Of a stretch of 47,296 nucleotides of DNA, positions 19,150 through 42,119 are shown piece by piece. How positions within the stretch are numbered: position 1 is the first letter of the stretch; every line of letters begins with the position of its first letter. A program made the position numbers and the translations under genes. The stretch comes from a virus. The stretch is from the IMG/VR virus record IMGVR_UViG_3300030389_003972, positions 1 through 47,296 of that record; one strand, 5' to 3'. Below the pieces are notes generated by a model. The model ran no database searches, was not told where the DNA came from, and saw only the letters and a list, made by a program, of their open reading frames with translations.

Positions 19150-21026
19150 GCCGTCGTGGCGACATATGGCTGGCCCTTAGCAAAGACCCCTATCTTTTTT
19201 TTAAGCGTTGCCTAAAGATTCGCGTCAAAACTGACAGCGGAATACAGATGCTGCCGTTTGAACCGAACCGGGAGCAACGCGCAGTCATTGACTGGGTGCT
19301 GCATTGCATCGAGCACAAGAAGCCAGTGCGGGTGATTATCAACAAATGCCGTCGTCTCGGCATGTCTACAGCTATCGAGGCCATTGGTTACTGGTTGTGT
19401 ACTTTCAATCCAAACCTGTTTGCGCTGGTAATAGCCCAGCTAGACCAGGCGACCAGGGAGATTGCAGGCATTGCGCGTAACTTTAAGAATAACCTGGACC
19501 CGCAGTTTGCGCGAATGTTTCCACATTCATTGCCAAAAAGCCGGGGAAACACGCTTGAGTGGTCATCCGATGTCGAGGGCGTGACCTGGGGCTCCAAGTT
19601 TCGAAGCATCACACAGGGCTCAACAGAAGCAAACCGGGGTGGCGACCCCTCATTCATTCACATTTCGGAGCTAGCGGCATGGGACCATTTACGGCGAAGC
19701 ACTACTGCCGAGGCGCAGCTTACATCAACGCTGGCCTCTATGTTATCGGAATCATTTACATTTGTGCTAATTGAGTCCACAGCGAAAGGCGCAAGCGGTA
19801 GCCACTACAACCGATTCAAGTCTGCGTGGCGAGATTGGACGGAAAGCCAAGACCACGCCATCTGGAGGCCTTTCTTTTTTAGCTGGCAAGGAGTTCCCAA
19901 GTATACCACAGGTATCACCGAAGATGAAGCAAGACTGCATGACGAGATGCTGGCCCTGTGGGAGCAAGGCGATATCTTGCGCTCCACCAGCAAAAGTAAA
20001 AAAGAGAACACGTTTCACAGCAAATCCCGTCTTATTGCTAAGGATGAGTTGCGATATTGGCACCGTACAGACGGGTGGGCATGGTTCGACAGGTGCTTTG
20101 AGTACGGTCTTACTCCCAGTGAAATGCGGTGGGGTCTGAATAAACGCCAAGAATTCGGTGACTTAGACGAATTTGACCAAGAGTTTCCGCTGTCTTGGCA
20201 GATGTCGTTTATTGCTTCCGGCTCAAGAGCCATAGACCAGCGTGTTATTTCTGAGTGGGCGGCAAAGCCACTGCCTGATGGGTTCAAACAGTTTAGAGAG
20301 TTTGTTGACGTAGACGACAAGATACAACCTGGTGGCACTGGTCTTGAGTGGCAGATGTACAGGGAGCCGGTGCCGGGCCATGAATACATCATCGGAACGG
20401 ACTCTGCGATGGGCTCAAAGGACGGCGATTGGTCAGCAGCACGGGTTTACGACCGACACGCCAAAGAAATAGTGGCAGAACTCTACTCTAAGTACTCTCC
20501 AGAGTTTCTTGGGGAGCAAGCTGTTCTGGCTGCGAAGTACTATAACAGGGCTTTTATTTCACCAGAGGCAAACAACCACGGCTACTCGACTATCAGCCAC
20601 ATTGTGAACACCATGGGATATCGCCAGATGCAGTTGCGCCGTCCTGGCAAGGCGATACGCCCTGGCAAAGATGCCTCTCAGATATATGGCACAATCATTG
20701 GCAGCTATAATAAGGCCAGGATTATTGACGAGCTGCGCCGAAGAATACGAGAGAAGGCATATACCGAGCACTCTCGGCGCTTTTGCCATGAGTGTACGAC
20801 GTATGTTCGCACTCAATCTGGACGCTATGACCACATGCCAGGGGAGCATGATGACCTGATTGACTGCACGGCTCTTATATTTGAAGCGGACAATAGAATG
20901 CGCCCTGTGCTAGAAGTGTCTGATAATTTGACTAAGGCTAAAGAGATGAACGACATTGCACCACGCGGCGGTCGCAGGCGGGGTGTTCGTCCTCAGAAGC
21001 GATTTTACCGTGGAGGTGGCCGATGA
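19146..21026 (+). CDS. terL: Terminase large subunit (626 aa)
   Basis: This is the ATP-driven DNA packaging motor with headful or end-cutting nuclease. A Walker A-like motif is NKCRRLGMST (about 66-75), the Walker B region is FIHISELAAWD (about 170-180) and the coupling motif is IESTAKG (209-215). The RNase H-fold nuclease shows GTDSAMGSKDGD (Asp about 419), SPEANNHG (Glu about 474) and GEHDDLIDC (Asp about 569/570). The C-terminal tail is Arg-rich (RGGRRRGVRPQKRFYRGGGR), a likely DNA or portal contact. The length is at the upper end of the family. It is followed directly by small head-operon genes and the portal. Confidence 0.96.
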   Translation: MSRRGDIWLALSKDPYLFFKRCLKIRVKTDSGIQMLPFEPNREQRAVIDWVLHCIEHKKPVRVIINKCRRLGMSTAIEAIGYWLCTFNPNLFALVIAQLDQATREIAGIARNFKNNLDPQFARMFPHSLPKSRGNTLEWSSDVEGVTWGSKFRSITQGSTEANRGGDPSFIHISELAAWDHLRRSTTAEAQLTSTLASMLSESFTFVLIESTAKGASGSHYNRFKSAWRDWTESQDHAIWRPFFFSWQGVPKYTTGITEDEARLHDEMLALWEQGDILRSTSKSKKENTFHSKSRLIAKDELRYWHRTDGWAWFDRCFEYGLTPSEMRWGLNKRQEFGDLDEFDQEFPLSWQMSFIASGSRAIDQRVISEWAAKPLPDGFKQFREFVDVDDKIQPGGTGLEWQMYREPVPGHEYIIGTDSAMGSKDGDWSAARVYDRHAKEIVAELYSKYSPEFLGEQAVLAAKYYNRAFISPEANNHGYSTISHIVNTMGYRQMQLRRPGKAIRPGKDASQIYGTIIGSYNKARIIDELRRRIREKAYTEHSRRFCHECTTYVRTQSGRYDHMPGEHDDLIDCTALIFEADNRMRPVLEVSDNLTKAKEMNDIAPRGGRRRGVRPQKRFYRGGGR

Positions 21027-21680: not shown

Positions 21681-22120
21681 TGCCGGTAGACCCAATAAGC
21701 TTAGGACTAAGCGCAGCCGTTGGTGGGGCTGGAACTATAGCTGAAGCAATAGCAAGCGCCCCTAGTTTCGATGATCGAATGAAGGCGCATGCTCGGCGGG
21801 CAAGGGGCCTCAATAAAAAGAAACAGGCCCTGGGTTATCTTGATGAGAACTTTAGGCCGTATGATTTTTCAAAAATGACGCCAGAAGAAAGAGAGGCTGT
21901 TGAAGCAAAACGAGCCGCTGCGGAAACTCGATACCGAAGTGGTGCCTTTGATATTGATGGTAACTTTATTAAACAGGAGAATCCGGCTTTTGAAGAGGCT
22001 GCCCCAATGGGCAGGGCAGTGTCTTCAATGATGTCATTTGACCCAGGCCCCGGACAAACATTATCGCAGCCTGTTTTAGTGAGACTGGGCAGAAACGCCG
22101 CGCAAACAATGTTTGATTAG
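21680..22120 (+). CDS. Hypothetical structural-operon protein, paralogue A (146 aa)
   Basis: It starts MPVDPISLGLSAAVGGAGTI and is Ala/Gly-rich at first, then helical and charged (PEEREAVEAKRAAAETRYRS). Near the end it has SSMMSFDPGPGQTLSQPVLV. The next protein (22146) starts MPIDPTAFTSAILQSVLG and carries RSYDPGPGPVVQM, so the two share the ends of a common plan. It is probably a minor head or connector component. A DUF assignment is not possible from the sequence alone. Confidence 0.68.
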   Translation: MPVDPISLGLSAAVGGAGTIAEAIASAPSFDDRMKAHARRARGLNKKKQALGYLDENFRPYDFSKMTPEEREAVEAKRAAAETRYRSGAFDIDGNFIKQENPAFEEAAPMGRAVSSMMSFDPGPGQTLSQPVLVRLGRNAAQTMFD

Positions 22121-25919: not shown

Positions 25920-27209
25920 ATGAGTGAAGGTATCGAAACAATAACGTCGTTCACAAACGCTCTTAAGGAGACGTATGAGGACGGCATTAAGGACCAGCTT
26001 AATCGAGACGTTGTGTTGTATGACGCACTTCAGAGTGGCACCAAGAAGGTAAAGCTTGAAGGCTCAGACTTGGTGTTTTCCACCAAGCTTGGTCGAGCTT
26101 ATGGCGCTCATGCTATTGCGGAGAATGGCAAGCTGCCTGATGCTGGAAGTGCTACTCGTGCAAAGGGCCGAGTAAAGCCAAAGGACGTTTGGGGTCGCGC
26201 ACAGCTTACGAAGCGCCTCATGGCAGTATCTAAGAGTGACCGTGGTGCTTTTGCTGATGCTCTTGCCGACAAGATGGACGACCTACAGGAAGACCTGAAG
26301 TACGAGGTTGCTCGTGCATTGGTTGGCAACAAGGTAGCCGCAAATGACCCAGATGGCACGGCTCTTAACTTGAAGACCGGGATCCTGGGGCAAGTAAAGG
26401 CAGGCGCTTCCGGCACGACAGTTACGGTGGAGAATATTTCCTCATGCGTACAGTTGCGACCTGGCATGCCCATTGCCATCGGCAGTGTTGCTGACCTAAC
26501 TGCTTCCACATCTACCGCAGTTCACGCTAAGATTGCTAGCATTGACAACACCGGGCAGATTACGCTTGATGCTAACTCTGCTACGTTTGAGACTGGTGAC
26601 GCTATTGTTCGTGGTGGAGCCAACGCAAATGCATATGACGAAGAGTTTACTGGCATTGCTCATATTGTTGATGATGTTGGTGAGCTTTATGGCATTGACC
26701 CTGCGTCAAGCCCACAGTGGGCTGCTTTTGTTGATGACAACAGCACCGTATCTCGTCCGTGGTCGCACGACATTATGAACAAGGTGTTTCGCAGCATCAA
26801 GACTAAATCTGGCAAGCGTCCTGACTACGTGACTGGTCACGATGCTCAGGTTGACGAGATTGCTAACACTCTCGTTAGCGATGTCCGATATGAGCCTTGC
26901 AAGTTCAAAGGTGGGTACGAGCGTTCGTTCCTAACTTGGAATAATGGCGAGCGCGACATTCCTATCGTTCCTGACGATATGTTCGAGCCCGGCAAGCTTG
27001 TATTCCTAAGCATGGATTGCCTCGCAATGTGTGAGACTGTGCCTATGGGATTCGATGAGACGGACTCGCTTCTACAGCGAGTTACTGATCGAGTGTCTTA
27101 CGAAATTGTCTACGGAACTATCGGAAACCTGGTCTGCTACCAGCGCAACGCTCACGGTGTGTTGGAAGACTTGCAATTCGACGAGACAAACTTCGCATTT
27201 GCTTCATAA
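25920..27209 (+). CDS. Major capsid protein (429 aa)
   Basis: The gene follows the scaffold and has the expected size. The opening region (TSFTNALKETYEDGIKDQLN, RDVVLYDALQSGTKKVKLEG) and GRVKPKDVWGRAQLTKRLMA resemble HK97-fold major capsid proteins of podoviruses. A middle segment rich in Thr/Ala/Val (TTVTVENISSCVQLRPGMPI, TASTSTAVHAKIASIDNTGQ) looks like an inserted beta domain on the capsid surface. It then continues with the P-domain-like C-terminal half (GNLVCYQRNAHGVLEDLQFD). A GC hairpin and the tRNA-like element follow directly. Confidence 0.9.
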   Translation: MSEGIETITSFTNALKETYEDGIKDQLNRDVVLYDALQSGTKKVKLEGSDLVFSTKLGRAYGAHAIAENGKLPDAGSATRAKGRVKPKDVWGRAQLTKRLMAVSKSDRGAFADALADKMDDLQEDLKYEVARALVGNKVAANDPDGTALNLKTGILGQVKAGASGTTVTVENISSCVQLRPGMPIAIGSVADLTASTSTAVHAKIASIDNTGQITLDANSATFETGDAIVRGGANANAYDEEFTGIAHIVDDVGELYGIDPASSPQWAAFVDDNSTVSRPWSHDIMNKVFRSIKTKSGKRPDYVTGHDAQVDEIANTLVSDVRYEPCKFKGGYERSFLTWNNGERDIPIVPDDMFEPGKLVFLSMDCLAMCETVPMGFDETDSLLQRVTDRVSYEIVYGTIGNLVCYQRNAHGVLEDLQFDETNFAFAS

Positions 27210-27222
27210 TTGAAGTAGTCTG

Positions 27223-27238
27223 GGGGCCGCTTGGCCCC
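27223..27238 (+). terminator. GC hairpin after the major capsid gene
   Basis: GGGGCC-GCTT-GGCCCC is a perfect 6-bp stem 13 nt past the capsid stop. No T run follows, so it may protect the 3' end of the capsid mRNA or cause partial termination. It stands 11 nt before the tRNA-like element. Confidence 0.55.
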
Positions 27239-27249
27239 TGGGCGCATCA

Positions 27250-27302
27250 GTCAGTCTAGCGGCAGGGCTACAGGAGAGGTTCGACCCCTCTGATTGACTC
27301 CA
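27250..27302 (+). ncRNA. tRNA-like element without anticodon arm
   Basis: A 7-bp acceptor stem, GTCAGTC (27250-27256) with GATTGAC (27292-27298, one G-U pair), encloses U8 A9, a short D-arm-like hairpin TAGC-GGCAGG-GCTA (27257-27270) and a perfect T-arm AGAGG-TTCGACC-CCTCT (27275-27291) with consensus T-loop TTCGANN. The discriminator is T and CCA is encoded (27300-27302). Only 18 nt lie between acceptor and T-arm, so there is no anticodon arm and it cannot decode. It may be an RNase P substrate that separates capsid mRNA from downstream mRNA, or a tRNA remnant. Confidence 0.72.
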
Positions 27303-27331
27303 GAAGATACAGCACCCTGGGAGGGGCAAAC

Positions 27332-27964
27332 ATGGGAATTCGTAATAACAATATTGAGCTTGAGTATCAGTGTCTATTTATACCGGCCACCGCGTTTACT
27401 GGCGTTGGTCTTATTGACGGGGCACAAGATGCAGAAGAGCTTAGTGCGGCAGGTAATGGGATTGCAAAACTTAAGCAGGCAGGCAGCACTGGCCTCTTAG
27501 GCCTTGAGTTTCAAAATGGCGACCGGGTTCAAACGCTTCTATCTCAGCCTACGTCGATGGACGTGGACTCTGAAATTTTTGTTCGTTGCTTTTGGTACTC
27601 TACTGCTTCTACCAATGGCAGCAACACGTTTACTCCAGTTGTTTCGTATTCTCAGATAGGGGACTTTAGCGACATACCTGATGACTCTGACTCGAAGACA
27701 GCGTTAGACATTACTATTCCTGCGGACACAGCCAATACAGGCAGTACGTTCTATGCAACAAGCGCCGGAACAATCAACGCAGGTAGCATTGCAGTGTCAG
27801 ACGATCAGTACGATGCTTTAGTCCTACAAGTACAAGCAACTATTGCCGGCTCTTTGCCCGACTTTCGGTTCCTTGGTCTTGAGCTTTGGTTCCTGCCAAA
27901 GCTTACACCAGGCGCTCAAAAGGCAAAAAATGCACTTCCCGAAAAGGTAGTAGTGGCTGAGTAA
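27332..27964 (+). CDS. Structural protein, possibly head decoration or tail-completion (210 aa)
   Basis: It is a beta-rich protein (IELEYQCLFIPATAFTGVGL, SSYSQIGDFSDIPDD-like middle, LDITIPADTANTGSTFYATS, LPDFRFLGLELWFLPKL) with few Cys/Lys, which fits a virion jelly-roll. GGAGG lies 8 nt before the ATG. Directly after the capsid gene, a head decoration or head-completion role is the simplest inference. It shares one base with the next gene (TAATG). Confidence 0.65.
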   Translation: MGIRNNNIELEYQCLFIPATAFTGVGLIDGAQDAEELSAAGNGIAKLKQAGSTGLLGLEFQNGDRVQTLLSQPTSMDVDSEIFVRCFWYSTASTNGSNTFTPVVSYSQIGDFSDIPDDSDSKTALDITIPADTANTGSTFYATSAGTINAGSIAVSDDQYDALVLQVQATIAGSLPDFRFLGLELWFLPKLTPGAQKAKNALPEKVVVAE

Positions 27965-28524
27965 TGGGTAACATTATCCTCGATACACGCGGTGACTTGC
28001 GGCCATCTCTCGACCAGGAGATGTACCGCAAGGTCACTGGCATCAACTGGAAAACAGCGCACAGCCGTCGATTGCAACGGCTTTGCGGCAACCCCAAGTT
28101 GGTCGTTGGTTATGACGGTGATGCCAAGGCATGGGCAATCGCTCACGTCCAGTCCACCGTAGTAAAAGACGACTTTGGTTCGCGAGAGCGCACCCATATC
28201 GAGGAACTACCCAATATCTGGTCACACTGGCGGCGAGGGATTTTTGAAGACGTTGAGCCGGGGGAGCTTGATACTCCGCTGTGCATCAACGACCCTCGCT
28301 TGCCAACTTACATTCTTGCCTGTGACCGCACCCAAGGAGGTGCCCAGGCAGCAGCCGAGCTAAAGATGAAGCGAGAAAAGACTCGCGCTATGGCTAAGGC
28401 TGCATTACGCAGGGAGCGCCGCGCACTGGCGTATGACCTGCATGGTAAGGCTGTGGGCGCTGCGAACGCCCTGGGCATTAGTTACCACCGCCCAGTCTCG
28501 CAAAGGGTGTTTGCACGTGGGTGA
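27964..28524 (+). CDS. Hypothetical structural-operon protein (186 aa)
   Basis: The sequence begins MGNIILDTRGDLRPSLDQEM and contains KLVVGYDGDAKAWAIAHVQS, IEELPNIWSHWRRGIFEDVE and NDPRLPTYILACDRT. The second half is a long basic helix (AAAELKMKREKTRAMAKAAL). It lies between a head protein and the adaptor. It may be a head-tail connector or an assembly factor; no family is recognised. It overlaps the next gene by 8 nt. Confidence 0.65.
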   Translation: MGNIILDTRGDLRPSLDQEMYRKVTGINWKTAHSRRLQRLCGNPKLVVGYDGDAKAWAIAHVQSTVVKDDFGSRERTHIEELPNIWSHWRRGIFEDVEPGELDTPLCINDPRLPTYILACDRTQGGAQAAAELKMKREKTRAMAKAALRRERRALAYDLHGKAVGAANALGISYHRPVSQRVFARG

Positions 28525-29224
28525 GACGCGGGCTGACGTAAGAACTACTATCCGAGACTTGCTGGATGATCCACGCAAGGACTTCTTTAGCGATGCCGTA
28601 GTCAACCGTGCAATTTCACGCGCCAACCAGATTGTTTACAACCTGCTGGCCAAACGCGACCCAAGCATATTTTCTACGGAAGGCTCGGTTACTTTGCCTG
28701 CCGATACCAAGTCAATAGACCTTAGCCAGTCTGCACCGGACGGCCTTGGTGAGATACCTATGGTCATACAACGGGTTTGGGAGACGGATGAGAGCGGCGC
28801 GGTGGGCACTAATAATGAGCCGCAGGAAGTGCTACCTACATCTCAGACCGCGTTGGTCGATGCGTACTGCAACGGCTCTGGATATCATAGCGCCCGTGGT
28901 TTGAGCCAGTTGTACTATTCTATGCGCGGCAAGTTCATGGACATAGCCCCTGTGCCTGGTGACGAGCGGTTTCTGAAGATACTTTATGTGCCTGCGAATC
29001 CCACTCCCCTGGCAGATGATATTGAGGTTCTAAGCGGTACGTTTCCTCATATGCATCAGGCAGTTGCTTACTGTGGTGCATACTTGTTGCTGTCGAAGCA
29101 GGAAGGGCAGAACGCAGCCAGCATCACGCAGCTATGGAGCGCCGCACAGTCTGAGCTGATTTCATTCGGCAACTTCCAGCAAGCCCAGAGAAATAACCGA
29201 GTACGCAGCTACCGGAGAAAATAA
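28517..29224 (+). CDS. Head-tail adaptor protein (235 aa), gp4/SU10-like
   Basis: The start is taken as the GTG at 28517 (AAAGGG upstream), which gives VGETRADVRTTIRDLLDDPR; the longer frame runs through the previous gene. The pattern R..IRDLLDDP.KDFFSDAVVNRAISRANQIV matches the adaptor that attaches below the portal in podoviruses. The C-terminal half (FPHMHQAVAYCGAYLLLSKQ, AAQSELISFGNFQQAQRNNR) is helical, as expected. It is coupled to the next gene by a one-base overlap. Confidence 0.78.
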   Translation: MGETRADVRTTIRDLLDDPRKDFFSDAVVNRAISRANQIVYNLLAKRDPSIFSTEGSVTLPADTKSIDLSQSAPDGLGEIPMVIQRVWETDESGAVGTNNEPQEVLPTSQTALVDAYCNGSGYHSARGLSQLYYSMRGKFMDIAPVPGDERFLKILYVPANPTPLADDIEVLSGTFPHMHQAVAYCGAYLLLSKQEGQNAASITQLWSAAQSELISFGNFQQAQRNNRVRSYRRK

Positions 29225-34965: not shown

Positions 34966-37182
34966 ATGGCTATAACACCACTAGCATCCGGGTACTTCAA
35001 CCAGGTTCGTGCAGCTAAAGACCGCGAAAAGCTACAGCAGCAGCAGTTCGAGCAAGAGCGCAAGCTTCGCAAAGAGCAAGACGAGCGGCGATTTGGATTG
35101 AGCATTGCGGAGGGCTTGGTTGGCGGGGCAATTAAGTTGGGCGCGGGCGCTGCTGGCCTCGCAATAGAAGAGGCGTTTGCGGACCCGTTTGCGGGCCTAA
35201 AGGGACTTGAGGCGTATGAGGCTTTTCGCGGCATTGCGCCTGATGTTTCATACGGGGGACAAGCAAAAAGCACTGGCTCGACCTCGTCAACCACCCCTGG
35301 TGTGCGGCCTGCTGTCCCGACATACGATGACCCGGACGAGCTAGAGATTGGACTCACGCAACAGCAACGTGACCAGTATGAAGCTCCAGGTTTTGCACAA
35401 ACTAATATCGACACCAGAGCTAAATACAGTCAAATGCCTGGTGCTACGCCTAAAGTGCAGGCGGGCTCTCAAACTGTAGTTTCACCAACAGCCCAGCCCG
35501 CAGACACTGATAGCAAGCTGGCAAGAGTTGCGCGCAAGAAACGTGGTATTGATTTGTCAGGGGCAGCTCCCGCCCAGCCGCCTACAGTGCCAGTAAGTTC
35601 ACTAGATACTGACCCAAAGGAACAAAGAATCGCGGAATATCGTGATCTGCGCGAGGGGATAAAATCCGATGTTGATAAAGAGTACCCGGCCCTTCCCAGT
35701 CTAAACAGAACACAGCTCAAGGCTTTAGCAGAGCGCACCGGCTATGACGAAGATGACCTCGCCAAGCTCTATGCAAGGGCCAAGGCTGGCAGAATGGCAC
35801 TGAGGGAGCAGGCAATCACAGCGCGGACGCAAAACCTTATGGCAGAGCAGCAGTTCGCAGCATACGGAAGGCCAACCCCGAGCCAAATTCAAAGCAGCCA
35901 AAGGTTTGCATACAACGCTACTAAAGACTACAGCCTCAACAAGCCGCTGTTGATGGTTGACTACATACTTCGGCAGGGGCAACTGGCGGTTCCTACTAGC
36001 GCCCAGACAGCCTTGCGCCGGGACATCTCGCCAGAGGCCAGAGAGGCAGTATTTGCCACGATGAACCGACGCGACAGAGAGATGGTTGCATATGGTGGAG
36101 ATGCTGTTGTGCAATCTGCCATCACACCGGACCAACTAAACGCTTTGTACGCAGTCTTGTTGTCTCAAGGTAAAACAGGCAGGGCCAGGGCCCTCAAGGG
36201 GCTGGCTACCAGTAAAGGTGGTTACAGAAGCATAGGCAAGGCTTTCGTGCCGAACATTTTGGTAACTGTTCCTGCAAGAGTTATATACGCCAATTCGGCT
36301 GGCGTAGACGAAAACCTGCTCGACCCAAGGACATTAACAGCGTTGCAAACCAACAAGGTAGGCAGCATCATTGAAGCCACCGATGGGGGTAAGTATCAAA
36401 GACAAGCAAAGAATCTTGCTAGTAAACTGGAAAAGCAACTCGGCCAAGTAGCAAGGGCAAGGACCGTACAAGAGCAAAACAGGCTTGCGGCAGAAATTGC
36501 CCGTACTGGTAAAATCCTTAAGAGCGTTATTAGCAACCACTCCGTACTAAGAGCCGATTCGCCAAGAGACACAGAGAAAAAGCTACAGAGATCCGGTGCA
36601 ACTTATGATGGGTACATTGCAAAATTCAATGCGGCTGCTCAAATAGTAGATGCTGCACGATCAGCCCGAGTAGACCTTGCGAATGATAAAAAAGATGATG
36701 CACTTCTCAATAGATTCAAGCCCGCTGGAGTAGATAGCCAGCACCTGAAAGATTACAAGCAGGGGAACAATCGGCTCATTCCACCGAAAAAACTAGATGC
36801 AATCAAAACCAAATTTAGTGCGTTCAAAAATTCTGAAATCGGTAGATTAGACGGCTTGATACGAAAAAAAAATCTAGAAATTGACCGCGCCACAGGCACA
36901 ATGCAGCGTCAATACAACAACATCAAGGAGCTTCGCAAAGCTTTTCCAAAGCAGGAGTTTAAGCTTCCCTCGATAAAGGACTATAACATTCAGGCCAAGG
37001 CCACAACAAGAGACGATGGCCTGCTTAGGGCAGTATACGCTCAAGCGGTGCAAATGCGCGATGCTGGGGCAAGCCAGCAACAGGCAAACGATTACATCGT
37101 TCGCACACTTCGTTCCTATGACGTTGACCCTGGCATATTACGTCAAGTTCAACAAGCCGCAGCCGCATCGAGGACAGCATAG
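34966..37182 (+). CDS. Internal virion protein candidate (738 aa)
   Basis: A coiled-coil N-terminus (AAKDREKLQQQQFEQERKLR), followed by a hydrophobic Ala/Gly segment (EGLVGGAIKLGAGAAGLAIE), suggests membrane interaction. The rest is basic and helical, with many Lys/Gln/Arg (KLEKQLGQVARARTVQEQNR, IRKKNLEIDRATGTMQRQYN). This fits an ejected inner-core protein. It shares one base with the next gene. No lysozyme motif is visible. Confidence 0.65.
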   Translation: MAITPLASGYFNQVRAAKDREKLQQQQFEQERKLRKEQDERRFGLSIAEGLVGGAIKLGAGAAGLAIEEAFADPFAGLKGLEAYEAFRGIAPDVSYGGQAKSTGSTSSTTPGVRPAVPTYDDPDELEIGLTQQQRDQYEAPGFAQTNIDTRAKYSQMPGATPKVQAGSQTVVSPTAQPADTDSKLARVARKKRGIDLSGAAPAQPPTVPVSSLDTDPKEQRIAEYRDLREGIKSDVDKEYPALPSLNRTQLKALAERTGYDEDDLAKLYARAKAGRMALREQAITARTQNLMAEQQFAAYGRPTPSQIQSSQRFAYNATKDYSLNKPLLMVDYILRQGQLAVPTSAQTALRRDISPEAREAVFATMNRRDREMVAYGGDAVVQSAITPDQLNALYAVLLSQGKTGRARALKGLATSKGGYRSIGKAFVPNILVTVPARVIYANSAGVDENLLDPRTLTALQTNKVGSIIEATDGGKYQRQAKNLASKLEKQLGQVARARTVQEQNRLAAEIARTGKILKSVISNHSVLRADSPRDTEKKLQRSGATYDGYIAKFNAAAQIVDAARSARVDLANDKKDDALLNRFKPAGVDSQHLKDYKQGNNRLIPPKKLDAIKTKFSAFKNSEIGRLDGLIRKKNLEIDRATGTMQRQYNNIKELRKAFPKQEFKLPSIKDYNIQAKATTRDDGLLRAVYAQAVQMRDAGASQQQANDYIVRTLRSYDVDPGILRQVQQAAAASRTA

Positions 37183-40100
37183 TGAGTGACTTTGTTGAAG
37201 AGCTAGTTGGACTAATGCTCCCCGAGTCTATGAGAGACAAAAGGCAGCAGAAAAAAATAGATGCTTTGGGTCTTCCCAAGGCAAAGCCCGGTGGAGTGCT
37301 GGACTCATTTGCTGAGTTTTTTCAACCTGATGTCGAGCTTACACCGGCCATCCCTAGCATTATTCAAAATATAAAGCCATCTGTTGAGAAAGCCGCCAGG
37401 GAACAAGGTTTTCCGACTGCCCCTAAAATAGATCGTTTTGATGCGGTTACGGGCGCTCTGGACAGACTGGAAAGTAAAGAGTTTGAAGACAGACTCAATT
37501 TTGTACCCAAGTCTGAGCGCGGCAAGGTTGGCTCTACAAGCGACAGGTTGACGGTCGGCAAAGTTCGTTCGCCGCAGTTTCGCGCAAAAGACTACTTTGA
37601 TGAAAAGCTAGGAAGGGTTGTAACAGGTGGAGACGAGCTGGCAAGGCGGGATATATTAAAAAGAATAGAGCAAGCCGAAGCCGAAGGCAGTGTCGCAGAT
37701 TTGCCCAGTTTGGTGGAGAAAGCTGGAAGGCTCGTGCCGCAAGGCTCAGAGCCGCGCAGGCTTTCAGAAATAGACTCTAATCCATTCAACTTGCGTATTA
37801 CTTCGCGAGTCCCCAGAAAGGGCAGCGGGGATATTATCAAATTTGAAGTTGGAGATGCATTATACGATACCCCTCCCCAGCCTTCTGGACTTGTGACCTC
37901 AAAGCAAGTTAGTGACGCTCGGCAGCAAGGCATGAGCCCTGCATTTGTGGGGTTTGAGGACGAGACTATAGGCGACCTTGTAGGCATCAAGGCGTCAACA
38001 GCTTTGGATCTTAACCCTGTTGCTGCCGTTTTGTCCTTTATGCAAAACATGCCCACGTTGAGTCCTTTTGCAATGGATGAAGGTCAACGAGGCACGAGCT
38101 TTATGGACCCGTCGAAAAAACCGGACAGGCCTACGGTTGGCGGGGCTCCGTCATTTATGGTTGGCGTTGGTCAGAAGCTGGCCGAGCTGTACCGTGGAGA
38201 GGGCAATGAAGAAATACGTAGCACGCTTAAATATTTGATTACTCCAGCCGCGTACTTTGATGAGCAAGCAAGGGTCTACCAGATGGGCGACAGGGACTAT
38301 AACGACCCTATGCGACCAGATGTCGTCAAGTTATTGCAAGAGGGCAAGACATACGAGCAAATAGACGATGAAATAGGTATGCCTGCTGGATCTGCCGAGT
38401 CCATTCACCTTGGCAAGTACAACCCGAAGAAAGAATACACAGCGTTTGACCAATACAGTGATTTCCTAGATTCAGTGACAGATGGGATGGATCATATTGG
38501 TGACAATATGGCAGCACTTGTCTTTGGCATCCCGAGCCTTATTGGAACAGCATACGAAGGCATTGCTAAACAACAGCCAGTTGGTGACGCTTTAGGCGGC
38601 GCTGGCGATGTCGTAACAGATATGGTTGAAAGCGTGTCTGCTGCTTTCACTGAGCCTGGAAAGCTAGCCAGAGATCAAGGCACCCTGCTGATGTTTGGCA
38701 ACATGATGATTCCTTTTGTTAAATCTTACGGCAGGGCTCGTAAAAGCATAAAAGCGAGAGGCAAGTCACTTAGAGATGAACTGGTAAAAAACACTAACGA
38801 GCTAGCCAAAAATCTTAAGCAAAAGCCAGTGTCATCATCGGCGGGACTGCCTGCGGCCCTGTCTGGCATAAACAAGGCGTTCAATAGAGATAGTCTGCTA
38901 CGGGCGCACACTAGAATAAAAAAGCAGTTGTTGCAAAATAGAGCGGCTACAGCCGCTTTGGTTGCTGCCGACTTGGGCTTGCTTATGGCAGGGCACCCTC
39001 TTGGATTGTACGACCTTGCCACGTCGCTAATTAGATACAGGGCATTGTCAAAACCAGGAACTGTTGAGGGCGTAAACAAGCGAGCATGGTGGCTAGACTC
39101 TACAGACAGAGTGCCTATTCAGTTTCAAGACCTCGTAAGAGAGCGTATGGGCATCGACAATGCTGCTACATTGGCTATGCACGATGCGTTTGCTCAAATA
39201 CCAGAGGGGCTAAGGCCAACTGCTCAAGTACACTTGCACATGGAGCATATGGACTCACCGCAGGTGGTGTTGCCAAGCGGTCGGAGAATCTATGCAAATA
39301 ACCCTGAAAAGAATCTTATGGATTACTTTGAGGGCAAAGACGGGAATCCTGGGGAATACAGGCTAACGGCTCTTGGGGAGAAGTATATAAAGTCTGCCGA
39401 GGCAAATAAGATAATTAATAACAGCTCTGACGCAATACAGCTTCGCAACCAGATTGAGCTTGCCAACAGCTTTAACAGGCCGCTTGCAGACATGCTGGTA
39501 GACACGTCGCGGAGGGCTCGCGAGCTTGGGCTCATTGGACCAGACACTTTGAGTGTCTACTATCCAAACCTTTGGCGGAAAGGCTCAAAGGCGTCCGAGA
39601 AAGGAAGGAACCTTGATGAAGCCGCTCAAGTCTACTTGAACCAACCTCTGGAAAGCCTTGGCGACTCAAGCGCATTGCGGATAAACACATACCGAAGGGC
39701 TGCAAAGAAATGGGAAAAAGATAACCCAAATGCCAACCCAAGCGATAACCCGTTTCGTCTGGAGGCCAGAATACAGGCAGGCATGGTTTCTGATATGTCG
39801 CAGGAGCTGTTTTCCGGCGCAGCAAAGCACATGGAGCAGGTCACAACTTTCGAGTTCTACAGGGATATGGCTAAGAGCGAGATAGCCCTGACAAGAAGCG
39901 AGCTTCAGGGCATTCGTGAACTTGCAGCGAGTAAGCTAAGTGAATCAAAACGCCCAGGACTTTCTAGTAGGCAGAAAAAAGACCTAGAGATGCAATCTCG
40001 CTCGCTCGTAGACATTGCTGACACATATGTGAAGATGGATGATTACAGCACGCTCAACACTGGGGCTCCGTCTCCCGTGCCTACATATGGACACTTGCAA

Positions 40101-42119
40101 GGCATTCTTGAGACTAAAGCTGATGGCACAAAGACTTGGAGAAGACGAAAGCCAGACGAAGAGCTGTTTATACAGGGCGATGTGCTGCTTGAAATGAAAA
40201 ACATTGAAAAGTTCAAGAGCGACATGGCTGGCAAAGTAGCAAAACTTTACACTGGCTGGAAAGGTTACAAGACTGTTGGCTCCCCAATGGCCCATGTGCG
40301 TAATGTCGCTGGTTTGGTTCTTTATCTTGCGCCGATGGCAGGAATAAGCCCGTTCAATCCTAAGAACTTCAAGTACTGGCAGATGGCAATAAAGGATTTG
40401 TCTCTGCCGGTTTCGCAAAGGTCAGCATACTTCAAAGAGGCGTATAAGTATGATGCTCTGGGCGCAACAGTGACAAAAGCAGAGCTGCCGGTGTACGCGA
40501 ACGAGCTAGCGCCCCTACAGGGAGGTGTGAAGAACGCATCTGACCTAATGAGGGCCTACATGGAGGTTATTACAAACCCACGTCTCGCTGCTGTCGGGGA
40601 TAACGTAAAAAGTGCAGGGAAAAACACCTACGAGGGAGCACGTCGTCTGTACTCAGCAACTGATGATGTAGGGAGATTGGTTTATTTCTATAAGAACTTG
40701 GACTTTATGAAGAAAGCCAAGAAAGAGACTGTTGCAGGTAAAAAAGCATTAGGGGCTACTACCAAATACAGGCTCTTGGACTACTCAAATCTTCCTAACT
40801 ACGCTCAGGTGATGCGAGCGCCCGTAAACCCACTTAGGCTTGCTCGTGAAGCTGGAGTCACGGCGCTTGCTCCAATGGGCGGGCTTGGAGCGGGAATATT
40901 AGCATATTTCTTAGGCAAGCCATTTATTGCATTTACGAGACAGGCGCTAAGACAGGAAAGAAATTATCGCAGAAATCATCCGATCAGAAATGCGATGTAT
41001 ATGAACCTGTATGACGCACTGACAAGGCAAAATCAGTTGGCCGCTAACCTTGACCCAGACCTGGAAGACGCTGGGATGAGGCTTGCGCCCGACTTTATAC
41101 GTGGCCAAATAACACCAATGGCTGCGTTTGGCTCATCGTTCGCAAAGGGCGACAGGCCAGGACAAACTCAGTTCGGCGGTAAAGACCCAGAGTCGCTTTT
41201 TAGCAAGATTACGAATGTCATGCCCTATGCCTCAATCATGCCTATTGGAATGCGTGCAACAAACAACGATGCCGCAAGCGTTGCAAATTTCCTAGCAGAT
41301 AAAGTGGTAGGAGACTTCCCCTTGGTGTCTACAGCGATAAACTTGCTCAGAAATCGCGATCCATTTTACAAGGGTCCGATTATGGATACCGAGGGCAGGG
41401 GCGCGAACACGATAGCGCAGGCGGTGAACTACGCTGTCAAAAAAGACTTCCCGACATTCACTCCACCGCTTGAGCTTATATTTGGACCTGCGTTTGATGC
41501 TGCCTATGAGGCTTATTATGGGGACAAGAGAGGGTTTGGGGATGTGAAGCTTGGCGGCGGCACGCTTACTAACAGGCTGATGGATGCATCAAAAGGCAGG
41601 GTTCTTAGGACTGGCGATGAGATGACTATGGACCGGATGCAGACGGAAATGATGACCGGCATACGGACAGAAGCTCTCACTAAGCGCAGATCGCTAATGA
41701 ATCGCGTTGGAGCTATGCTTGGCGCAATCCGAGGGCTTCCAAAGGCATTCCTCAGAGCAGAGCGCCTCCCAAGACTGGCAGGTCAAAAGTCGAGAGGTGT
41801 AGAAGAGGTTATAGACGCGCTATCTACAAAACAGGTTCAAGTGGCGTCGGACAGGATGCCAGAGCTTATTAGGACACTCAGCAGCTTTGAGAAGGCCGAG
41901 AATGAAGACGGGCTAATGTACCCCGAGGCGGTGCGGCTCAACGCGCTAGCAAAGCAGTTTTATGTTGCATCGAAAATGCAAAAAGACATGCCTTTGGCAA
42001 AAAGCCTACTGGCTAGGTTGATGAAAACCTATCGACAGCAGAACGACCTGCTGCTTGACTACGATGCATCAAGGGTAAGAGAGACACTGGAAAAAAGGCG
42101 CGGTGGCATTGCAGAGTAA
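37182..42119 (+). CDS. Very large internal virion protein (1645 aa)
   Basis: This is the largest gene, more than 10 % of the genome. The start is GTG, overlapping the previous stop. Long helical regions alternate with hydrophobic segments (ATAALVAADLGLLMAGHPLG, about residue 590; LAPMGGLGAGILAYFLGKPF, about 1230). GWKGYKTVGSPMAHVRNVAG and DYSNLPNYAQVMRAPVNPLR (about 1025 and 1200) resemble motifs of the large polyvalent or giant virion proteins of podoviruses. It probably crosses the host envelope during ejection. No catalytic motif is identified. Confidence 0.68.
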   Translation: MSDFVEELVGLMLPESMRDKRQQKKIDALGLPKAKPGGVLDSFAEFFQPDVELTPAIPSIIQNIKPSVEKAAREQGFPTAPKIDRFDAVTGALDRLESKEFEDRLNFVPKSERGKVGSTSDRLTVGKVRSPQFRAKDYFDEKLGRVVTGGDELARRDILKRIEQAEAEGSVADLPSLVEKAGRLVPQGSEPRRLSEIDSNPFNLRITSRVPRKGSGDIIKFEVGDALYDTPPQPSGLVTSKQVSDARQQGMSPAFVGFEDETIGDLVGIKASTALDLNPVAAVLSFMQNMPTLSPFAMDEGQRGTSFMDPSKKPDRPTVGGAPSFMVGVGQKLAELYRGEGNEEIRSTLKYLITPAAYFDEQARVYQMGDRDYNDPMRPDVVKLLQEGKTYEQIDDEIGMPAGSAESIHLGKYNPKKEYTAFDQYSDFLDSVTDGMDHIGDNMAALVFGIPSLIGTAYEGIAKQQPVGDALGGAGDVVTDMVESVSAAFTEPGKLARDQGTLLMFGNMMIPFVKSYGRARKSIKARGKSLRDELVKNTNELAKNLKQKPVSSSAGLPAALSGINKAFNRDSLLRAHTRIKKQLLQNRAATAALVAADLGLLMAGHPLGLYDLATSLIRYRALSKPGTVEGVNKRAWWLDSTDRVPIQFQDLVRERMGIDNAATLAMHDAFAQIPEGLRPTAQVHLHMEHMDSPQVVLPSGRRIYANNPEKNLMDYFEGKDGNPGEYRLTALGEKYIKSAEANKIINNSSDAIQLRNQIELANSFNRPLADMLVDTSRRARELGLIGPDTLSVYYPNLWRKGSKASEKGRNLDEAAQVYLNQPLESLGDSSALRINTYRRAAKKWEKDNPNANPSDNPFRLEARIQAGMVSDMSQELFSGAAKHMEQVTTFEFYRDMAKSEIALTRSELQGIRELAASKLSESKRPGLSSRQKKDLEMQSRSLVDIADTYVKMDDYSTLNTGAPSPVPTYGHLQGILETKADGTKTWRRRKPDEELFIQGDVLLEMKNIEKFKSDMAGKVAKLYTGWKGYKTVGSPMAHVRNVAGLVLYLAPMAGISPFNPKNFKYWQMAIKDLSLPVSQRSAYFKEAYKYDALGATVTKAELPVYANELAPLQGGVKNASDLMRAYMEVITNPRLAAVGDNVKSAGKNTYEGARRLYSATDDVGRLVYFYKNLDFMKKAKKETVAGKKALGATTKYRLLDYSNLPNYAQVMRAPVNPLRLAREAGVTALAPMGGLGAGILAYFLGKPFIAFTRQALRQERNYRRNHPIRNAMYMNLYDALTRQNQLAANLDPDLEDAGMRLAPDFIRGQITPMAAFGSSFAKGDRPGQTQFGGKDPESLFSKITNVMPYASIMPIGMRATNNDAASVANFLADKVVGDFPLVSTAINLLRNRDPFYKGPIMDTEGRGANTIAQAVNYAVKKDFPTFTPPLELIFGPAFDAAYEAYYGDKRGFGDVKLGGGTLTNRLMDASKGRVLRTGDEMTMDRMQTEMMTGIRTEALTKRRSLMNRVGAMLGAIRGLPKAFLRAERLPRLAGQKSRGVEEVIDALSTKQVQVASDRMPELIRTLSSFEKAENEDGLMYPEAVRLNALAKQFYVASKMQKDMPLAKSLLARLMKTYRQQNDLLLDYDASRVRETLEKRRGGIAE

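Follow-up and report, generated by a model that had tools for sequence, protein, structure and literature searches.

An anticodon-less tRNA-like element at the capsid-gene junction of a podovirus-like phage and comparable elements in T7-like phages

A tRNA-like element between two late genes

The podovirus-like phage IMGVR_UViG_3300030389_003972 carries a tRNA-like element without an anticodon arm (27250-27302) between its capsid gene and the late gene that follows. This locus raises the question of which parts of a tRNA are kept there, whether they are conserved, and what they may do within a late transcript. The window is the whole stretch of 47,296 nucleotides analysed from this virus record; the element, its parts, and the genes that directly flank it lie on the plus strand.

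The acceptor-like stem is formed by a 5′ strand at 27249-27256 and a 3′ strand (GAUUGACU) at 27292-27299. GTCAGTC (27250-27256) and GATTGAC (27292-27298) form 7 bp, one of which is G-U, and addition of the A27249:U27299 pair extends the stem to 8 bp. The T-arm (27275-27291) consists of the stem AGAGG/CCUCU (27275-27279/27287-27291) and the loop UUCGACC (27280-27286), and it is followed, after the acceptor strand, by a CCA trinucleotide (27300-27302). The acceptor and T-stem are separated by 18 nt comprising a D-like hairpin, UAGC-GGCAGG-GCUA (27257-27270; 4 bp with a GG-containing loop), and CAGG; since one 4-bp hairpin fills this spacer, there is no anticodon arm. The 7-bp acceptor, the T-arm with its TTCGACC loop, the 4-bp D-like hairpin, and the 18-nt gap can thus be read directly in the letters of the window, as the initial annotation had proposed. 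The acceptor and T-stem make up a stack of 12 bp (7+5, or 8+5 with A27249:U27299) beside the UUCGACC loop, which bears out the minimal RNase P substrate layout also claimed there. Its U8/A9 assignment probably does not hold, because the D-like hairpin spans 27257-27270 and these bases are probably paired within TAGC-GGCAGG-GCTA.

The upstream neighbor is the major capsid protein gene (25920-27209; PHROG 14242 major head protein, E = 2e-51). The downstream late gene (27332-27964) has no family match and is preceded by the Shine-Dalgarno-like sequence GGAGGGG (27320-27326), about 20 nt past the tRNA-like element; it is followed by an SU10-adaptor-like gene (28433-29224). The portal of the phage matches PHROG 156, and its other proteins include a tyrosine integrase, DnaB, RecE/RecT-like proteins, and a GH25 lysin. 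Since the proteins scanned include no RNA polymerase, late transcription probably relies on the host enzyme, and no T7-like promoter was seen upstream of the element on reading 26900-27700. Farther along, 37182-42119 encodes a late protein of 1645 aa with no Pfam or PHROG match.

A search with the capsid protein returned 10 related contigs. Nine of them extend beyond the capsid gene, and all nine carry the element after it, so that its place is kept among relatives with capsid identities of 73-84%. A covariance model (R2) finds a single copy per genome. The conserved unit is a non-coding block of about 86 nt (27217-27302) that is near-invariant in the nine relatives and 87-97% identical to the window, against only 37-66% identity at 4-fold sites of the capsid gene. 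In the relatives, an invariant 26-nt hairpin comes first and is joined to the tRNA-like part by a short linker that varies. The hairpin, GUCUGGGGGCC-GCUU-GGCCCCUGGGC (27218-27243), has 11 pairs, all of them invariant. The 53-nt extent initially given therefore describes the tRNA-like part, while the unit itself is longer, since it takes in the invariant 11-bp hairpin that precedes this part. An intrinsic-terminator U-run behind this hairpin is absent in the window, which has GCAUC there; in three relatives (L007-L009), the hairpin is directly followed by UUUU.

Loss of stem pairing or of the T-loop in related phages had been named in advance as grounds for rejecting the element. Both are conserved: pair cells are 100% paired across the 8 distinct sequences, and the T-loop UUCGA is invariant. 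One T-stem pair shows a compensatory change, from G-C to C-G in L007, and there are two one-sided changes. The acceptor shows one U-A to U-G variant. Covariation within the family is thin, with the observed score reached by 61 of 500 shuffles, a weak control because these sequences hardly vary. The 3′ NCC(A) with which RNase P RNA could pair begins with an invariant UCC. The encoded CCA is present in the window as reported, and its CC is kept; the trinucleotide as a whole is not conserved, reading CCG in six of the nine relatives (L001, L003, L005, and L007-L009) and ending in A in 4 of the 10 sequences, window included.

A scan with a descriptor requiring a perfect 7-bp acceptor (G-U allowed), a perfect 5-bp T-stem, a TT[CG]RANN loop, and a gap of 8-35 yields exactly one site in the window, compared with 0.08 expected from 100 Markov-1 shuffles on both strands. 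Folding energy by itself gives the element no support (z = +0.62). The minimum-energy fold of the window element has a rod-like interior, slightly preferred over the tRNA-like interior; the tRNA-like fold lies within about 0.2 kcal/mol of the minimum in the window and is itself the minimum-energy fold in L007. Among the minimum-energy folds, those of L007 and L008 contain the D-like hairpin, and every one contains the upstream 11-bp hairpin.

A full or intron-split tRNA is rejected, as ARAGORN calls no tRNA in the window and Rfam reports nothing there, including no match to the tRNA family (RF00005). ARAGORN returns an 88-nt "tRNA-???" in L007-L009 only, taking the 11-bp hairpin as an arm and using a second, upstream AGTC; this call was not adopted, as its acceptor pairs incompletely in the window's clade. 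The block is not coding, because its indels are not multiples of 3, and readthrough of the capsid stop is rejected given two nearby in-frame stops and stop surroundings that are not conserved in L007-L009. Farther from the family, the distant capsid relatives Jasmine (Arthrobacter), Shocker (Microbacterium), and the Manatee Spring phage (25-28% identity) have ordinary GC hairpins after the capsid gene and no tRNA-like element. The window element gave no match as a DNA query against the phage collection, and a scan of genome contigs with the capsid protein gave one distant, uninformative Microbacterium locus. Positions 27250-27302 are confirmed as a real, conserved, structured tRNA-like element that lacks the anticodon arm.

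Leaders of T7-like phages and elements in other viruses

A pattern scan led to an intergenic cloverleaf in an actinophage-like contig (L020:9085-9146), upstream of an ORF, in which a UACG tetraloop replaces the anticodon loop. About 0.4 chance matches to its pattern are estimated for the collection, whose size was assumed, and no relatives were found; the element, which lies in an unrelated contig, is accordingly treated as independent. Its T-arm matched unannotated DNA of T7-like phages, at the φ9 leader in the gap between genes 8 and 9.

The φ9 leader starts at +1 of the φ9 promoter and contains an acceptor, a single hairpin, and a T-arm, with no anticodon arm. The layout is present in T7, T3, KP32-type phages, JA10, and phages of Przondovirus, Ningirsuvirus, and Berlinvirus; in Berlinvirus P483, the leader precedes gene 10, the capsid gene. 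The KP32-type leader reads GGGAGACAC-AU-CCAGA(UUGAAUGAGG)UCUGG-UCA-GAAGG(UUCGAGU)CCUUC-GUGUUUCCC, and the T7 and T3 leaders follow the same layout with the T-loop UUGGAGU. In T7, the leader (L030:1866-1921, about 21865-21920 of NC_001604) can fold into an 8-bp acceptor, a hairpin, and a T-arm-like stem, and it is not annotated as tRNA-like. Blast finds the EG1/HZ2R8-type leader in 286 phage records and the T7 leader in 270, two lists that may overlap and in which some matches cover the element only partly. The initial annotation knew of no named family with this layout between capsid and tail genes, which agrees with the lack of an Rfam match at threshold; the layout itself is not unique, since the φ9 leaders share it.

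Across 13 distinct φ9 leaders, 97.8% of cells are paired and double-sided changes affect 9 of 22 pairs; none of 2000 shuffles reaches either figure. The hairpin-loop motif is conserved, and its final base goes with T-loop position 56: a G there accompanies C at 56, and a C accompanies G. When position 56 was left free in a scan, 16 contigs were returned, and all those read have G with the C-type loop. This G/C swap fits the 19-56 elbow pair of tRNA, a presumed contact between D-loop and T-loop, and it may reflect a single evolutionary event. With a covariance model of the T7-type leader, the L001 member of the window's family ranks second among the 7 matches found in 142 kb and is placed exactly (E = 0.053); the copies in L008 (E = 1.0) and L007 (E = 1.6) follow, and the window copy is not listed.

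K1F, gh-1, SP6, and phiKMV have different sequences at equivalent places, which are plain hairpins in SP6 and gh-1, and in gh-1 the corresponding 8/9 site carries the annotation of a putative RNase III stem. The tRNA shape is thus not indispensable, as K1F, gh-1, and SP6 have other 5′ structures at such places. Two irregular copies were also observed. Yersinia phage vB_Yep_9 (L023:1985-2070) lacks the φ9 promoter and the 5′ acceptor strand and keeps the hairpin and T-arm, making it a natural broken copy. In Klebsiella phage K10PH82C1 (L084), the gene 9 leader and promoter appear to be duplicated in tandem.

Reading the structural-gene gaps of five other Autographiviridae revealed an element in Syn5 (L073:1843-1883, about 19842-19882 of NC_009531) between the scaffold and capsid genes. 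Its form is GGUAG-AGCUGGUGCGCA-GCAGGG(UUCGAUU)CCCUGC-CUACC, and it is kept in cyanophage S-TIP28. Against the mascRNA-menRNA model (RF01684), the Syn5 and L020 elements fall below the gathering score, Syn5 at 23.4 bits (E = 0.016), and the window is not listed. Minimal intergenic acceptor/T-arm elements also occur in archaeal pleolipoviruses, namely His2 virus (L074:1492-1524) and L077, and Streptomyces phage Endor2 (L075:1403-1443) has GGGUG and CACCC enclosing a T-arm before a small ORF, in nearly the layout of Syn5. The His2 and Endor2 cases are selected, as they were found through Blast matches to T-arms. A GC-rich hairpin with the T-loop-like GUCGAGU in the tape measure/gp44 gap of phiBT1 (L022:2001-2030) was set aside, having no clean acceptor/T-arm closure.

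Possible functions of the block

From sequence comparison, the best supported of several readings, held at about an even chance, is that the block is a host RNase P site separating the capsid mRNA from the downstream mRNA. RNase P acts as a ruler for the stack of T-arm and acceptor, and besides tRNA precursors it cuts tmRNA, 4.5S RNA, and the MALAT1 and MEN-β RNAs (PMC4919913). The block would then be a cis-acting punctuation mark of the late transcript. Its acceptor-like stem, D-like hairpin, and T-arm would together form the upper half of a tRNA fold, and host RNase P, gauging the stacked acceptor and T stems, would cleave the read-through mRNA either near 27249/27250 or immediately before 27249. 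The capsid mRNA would thereby end a few bases past the 11-bp hairpin, which could shield it against 3′ exonucleases. The downstream mRNA would begin with the tRNA-like fold, which may protect its 5′ end and which shortly precedes the ribosome-binding site of the next gene. Such cleavage may influence the lifetimes of the two messages. For T7-like phages, cleavage at +1 or close to it would make read-through RNA begin about where the primary transcript does.

Counted in favor of RNase P are the 12-bp stack, conservation in place, the invariant UUCGA and CC, and the covariation of the φ9 leaders. Counted against it are the preference for a rod-like fold, the thin covariation of the window's family, and the unconserved CCA. 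The T7-like phages also weigh against it: their elements begin at the transcription start, so primary transcripts would offer RNase P no leading segment to take off and cleavage would be confined to read-through RNA, and K1F, gh-1, and SP6 have other 5′ structures instead. In T7, a number of RNase III sites are found directly behind promoters.

The position at +1 suits a structural cap that works without RNase P, in which the hairpin and tRNA-like fold would only keep exonucleases or RNase E off the RNA or make the polymerase pause: as T7-like leaders begin at +1, a cap needs no cleavage. The plain hairpins of other T7-like phages such as SP6 and gh-1 point the same way, and the UUUU behind the upstream hairpin in L007-L009 hints at weak termination. 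A cap, however, needs neither a UUCGA T-loop, nor a 5-bp T-stem with a 7-nt loop, nor contact between the loops, and these are among the best conserved features; this explanation is judged unlikely, with an appreciable share of the probability. Another reading is an excised RNA of about 53 nt, released by RNase P and a 3′ enzyme to act in trans as a tRNA mimic that would, for example, inhibit a toxin or a tRNA-binding enzyme or serve as its decoy. The outline resembles eukaryotic mascRNA, itself excised from a long RNA and approached below threshold by Syn5, and the window copy has a terminal CCA. This CCA is not conserved, though, and the window's family is always found at the late-gene junction, while T7-like copies lie inside a leader that includes a ribosome-binding site, so that a trans-acting product is improbable. 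No more probable is control of translation of the downstream gene, whether by mimicry of tRNA toward the ribosome or EF-Tu or by a structure that opens to expose the ribosome-binding site. The strong Shine-Dalgarno-like sequence about 20 nt downstream and the place of the T7-like copies in the leader of gene 9 (gene 10 in P483) would fit such control, but the structure does not include the ribosome-binding site, around which the sequence is variable. EF-Tu binding requires an aminoacylated 3′ end, which is absent within an mRNA.

Tyrosine integrases often use tRNA 3′ ends, and the window phage and three relatives encode such an enzyme, which would agree with a phage attachment site or the remnant of a host tRNA gene. 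In the window, however, the integrase is 17 kb from the element, and the block is near-invariant while the integrases are only 44-52% identical. The 5′ acceptor strand and the D-like and upstream hairpins, which an att core does not need, are kept, and the T-stem has been altered by a compensatory pair. This origin is disfavored and very improbable. Equally slight is the chance that the resemblance is fortuitous in a block conserved for another reason, such as a packaging or origin site; little covariation within the window's family would allow it, but a window holds 0.08 such sites by expectation, and the layout recurs independently, with strong covariation, at late-gene junctions of T7-like phages.

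If RNase P does cut here, a near-indispensable and universal host enzyme would be a switch point of phage late expression, and this would explain how one late transcript can give rise to a capsid message and a tail message, each with its own protected ends. Since the T7 gene 9 leader has the same layout, the idea is testable at once in the best-known laboratory phage. More tentatively, and at somewhat below an even chance, anticodon-less elements may form a recurrent, unnamed class of processing sites at capsid-region junctions of dsDNA phages including T7, where host RNase P, alongside RNase III, would separate and cap late messages, with several unrelated origins. A T-arm and acceptor without an anticodon arm is a search image that tRNA callers and Rfam miss.

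Comparison with known systems

A tRNA-like RNase P substrate is a known kind of RNA; its anticodon-less variant at phage late-gene junctions, the gene 9 leader of T7 among them, appears to be new to the databases and papers that were searched. Outside the older T7 literature, where an earlier description may exist, the search found no paper that treats the φ9 leader or a capsid-junction element as tRNA-like. The non-tRNA substrates of bacterial RNase P, of which several come from phages or are mRNAs, include phage M3 RNA, the C4 RNA of P1/P7, tmRNA, 4.5S RNA, T4 gene 32 mRNA, and other, polycistronic mRNAs; in the accounts of them considered here, none takes the form of a tRNA lacking its anticodon arm and placed between capsid and tail genes (PMC11143913). 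The mascRNA and MEN-β RNAs (RF01684) have a tRNA-like fold with a reduced anticodon region, lie inside a long transcript, and are RNase P substrates (PMC4919913). Unlike the window element, which does not match their model, they are eukaryotic and are cut from noncoding RNA.

The element of Syn5 and S-TIP28 resembles that of the window in its acceptor, small GG-loop hairpin, consensus T-arm, missing anticodon arm, and capsid-gene junction. It differs in having a 5-bp acceptor, a 6-bp T-stem, and a 12-nt linker, and it stands before the capsid gene, whereas the window element stands after it. The φ9 leaders share an acceptor-like stem (8-9 bp), a single internal hairpin, a T-arm, and the lack of an anticodon arm, and they too are intergenic and beside a head-assembly gene. 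In contrast, they lie at a start site of the phage RNA polymerase, before the scaffold gene (the capsid gene in P483), with a larger internal hairpin and no CCA. The likeness of the window, T7-type, Syn5-type, and other elements is one of layout, which does not establish common descent. A functional parallel to the proposed RNase P site is found in T7 late mRNA, where RNase III sites separate co-transcribed genes: in both cases, a host endonuclease would act between phage genes, at a double-stranded stem in T7 and at a tRNA-like fold in the window phage.
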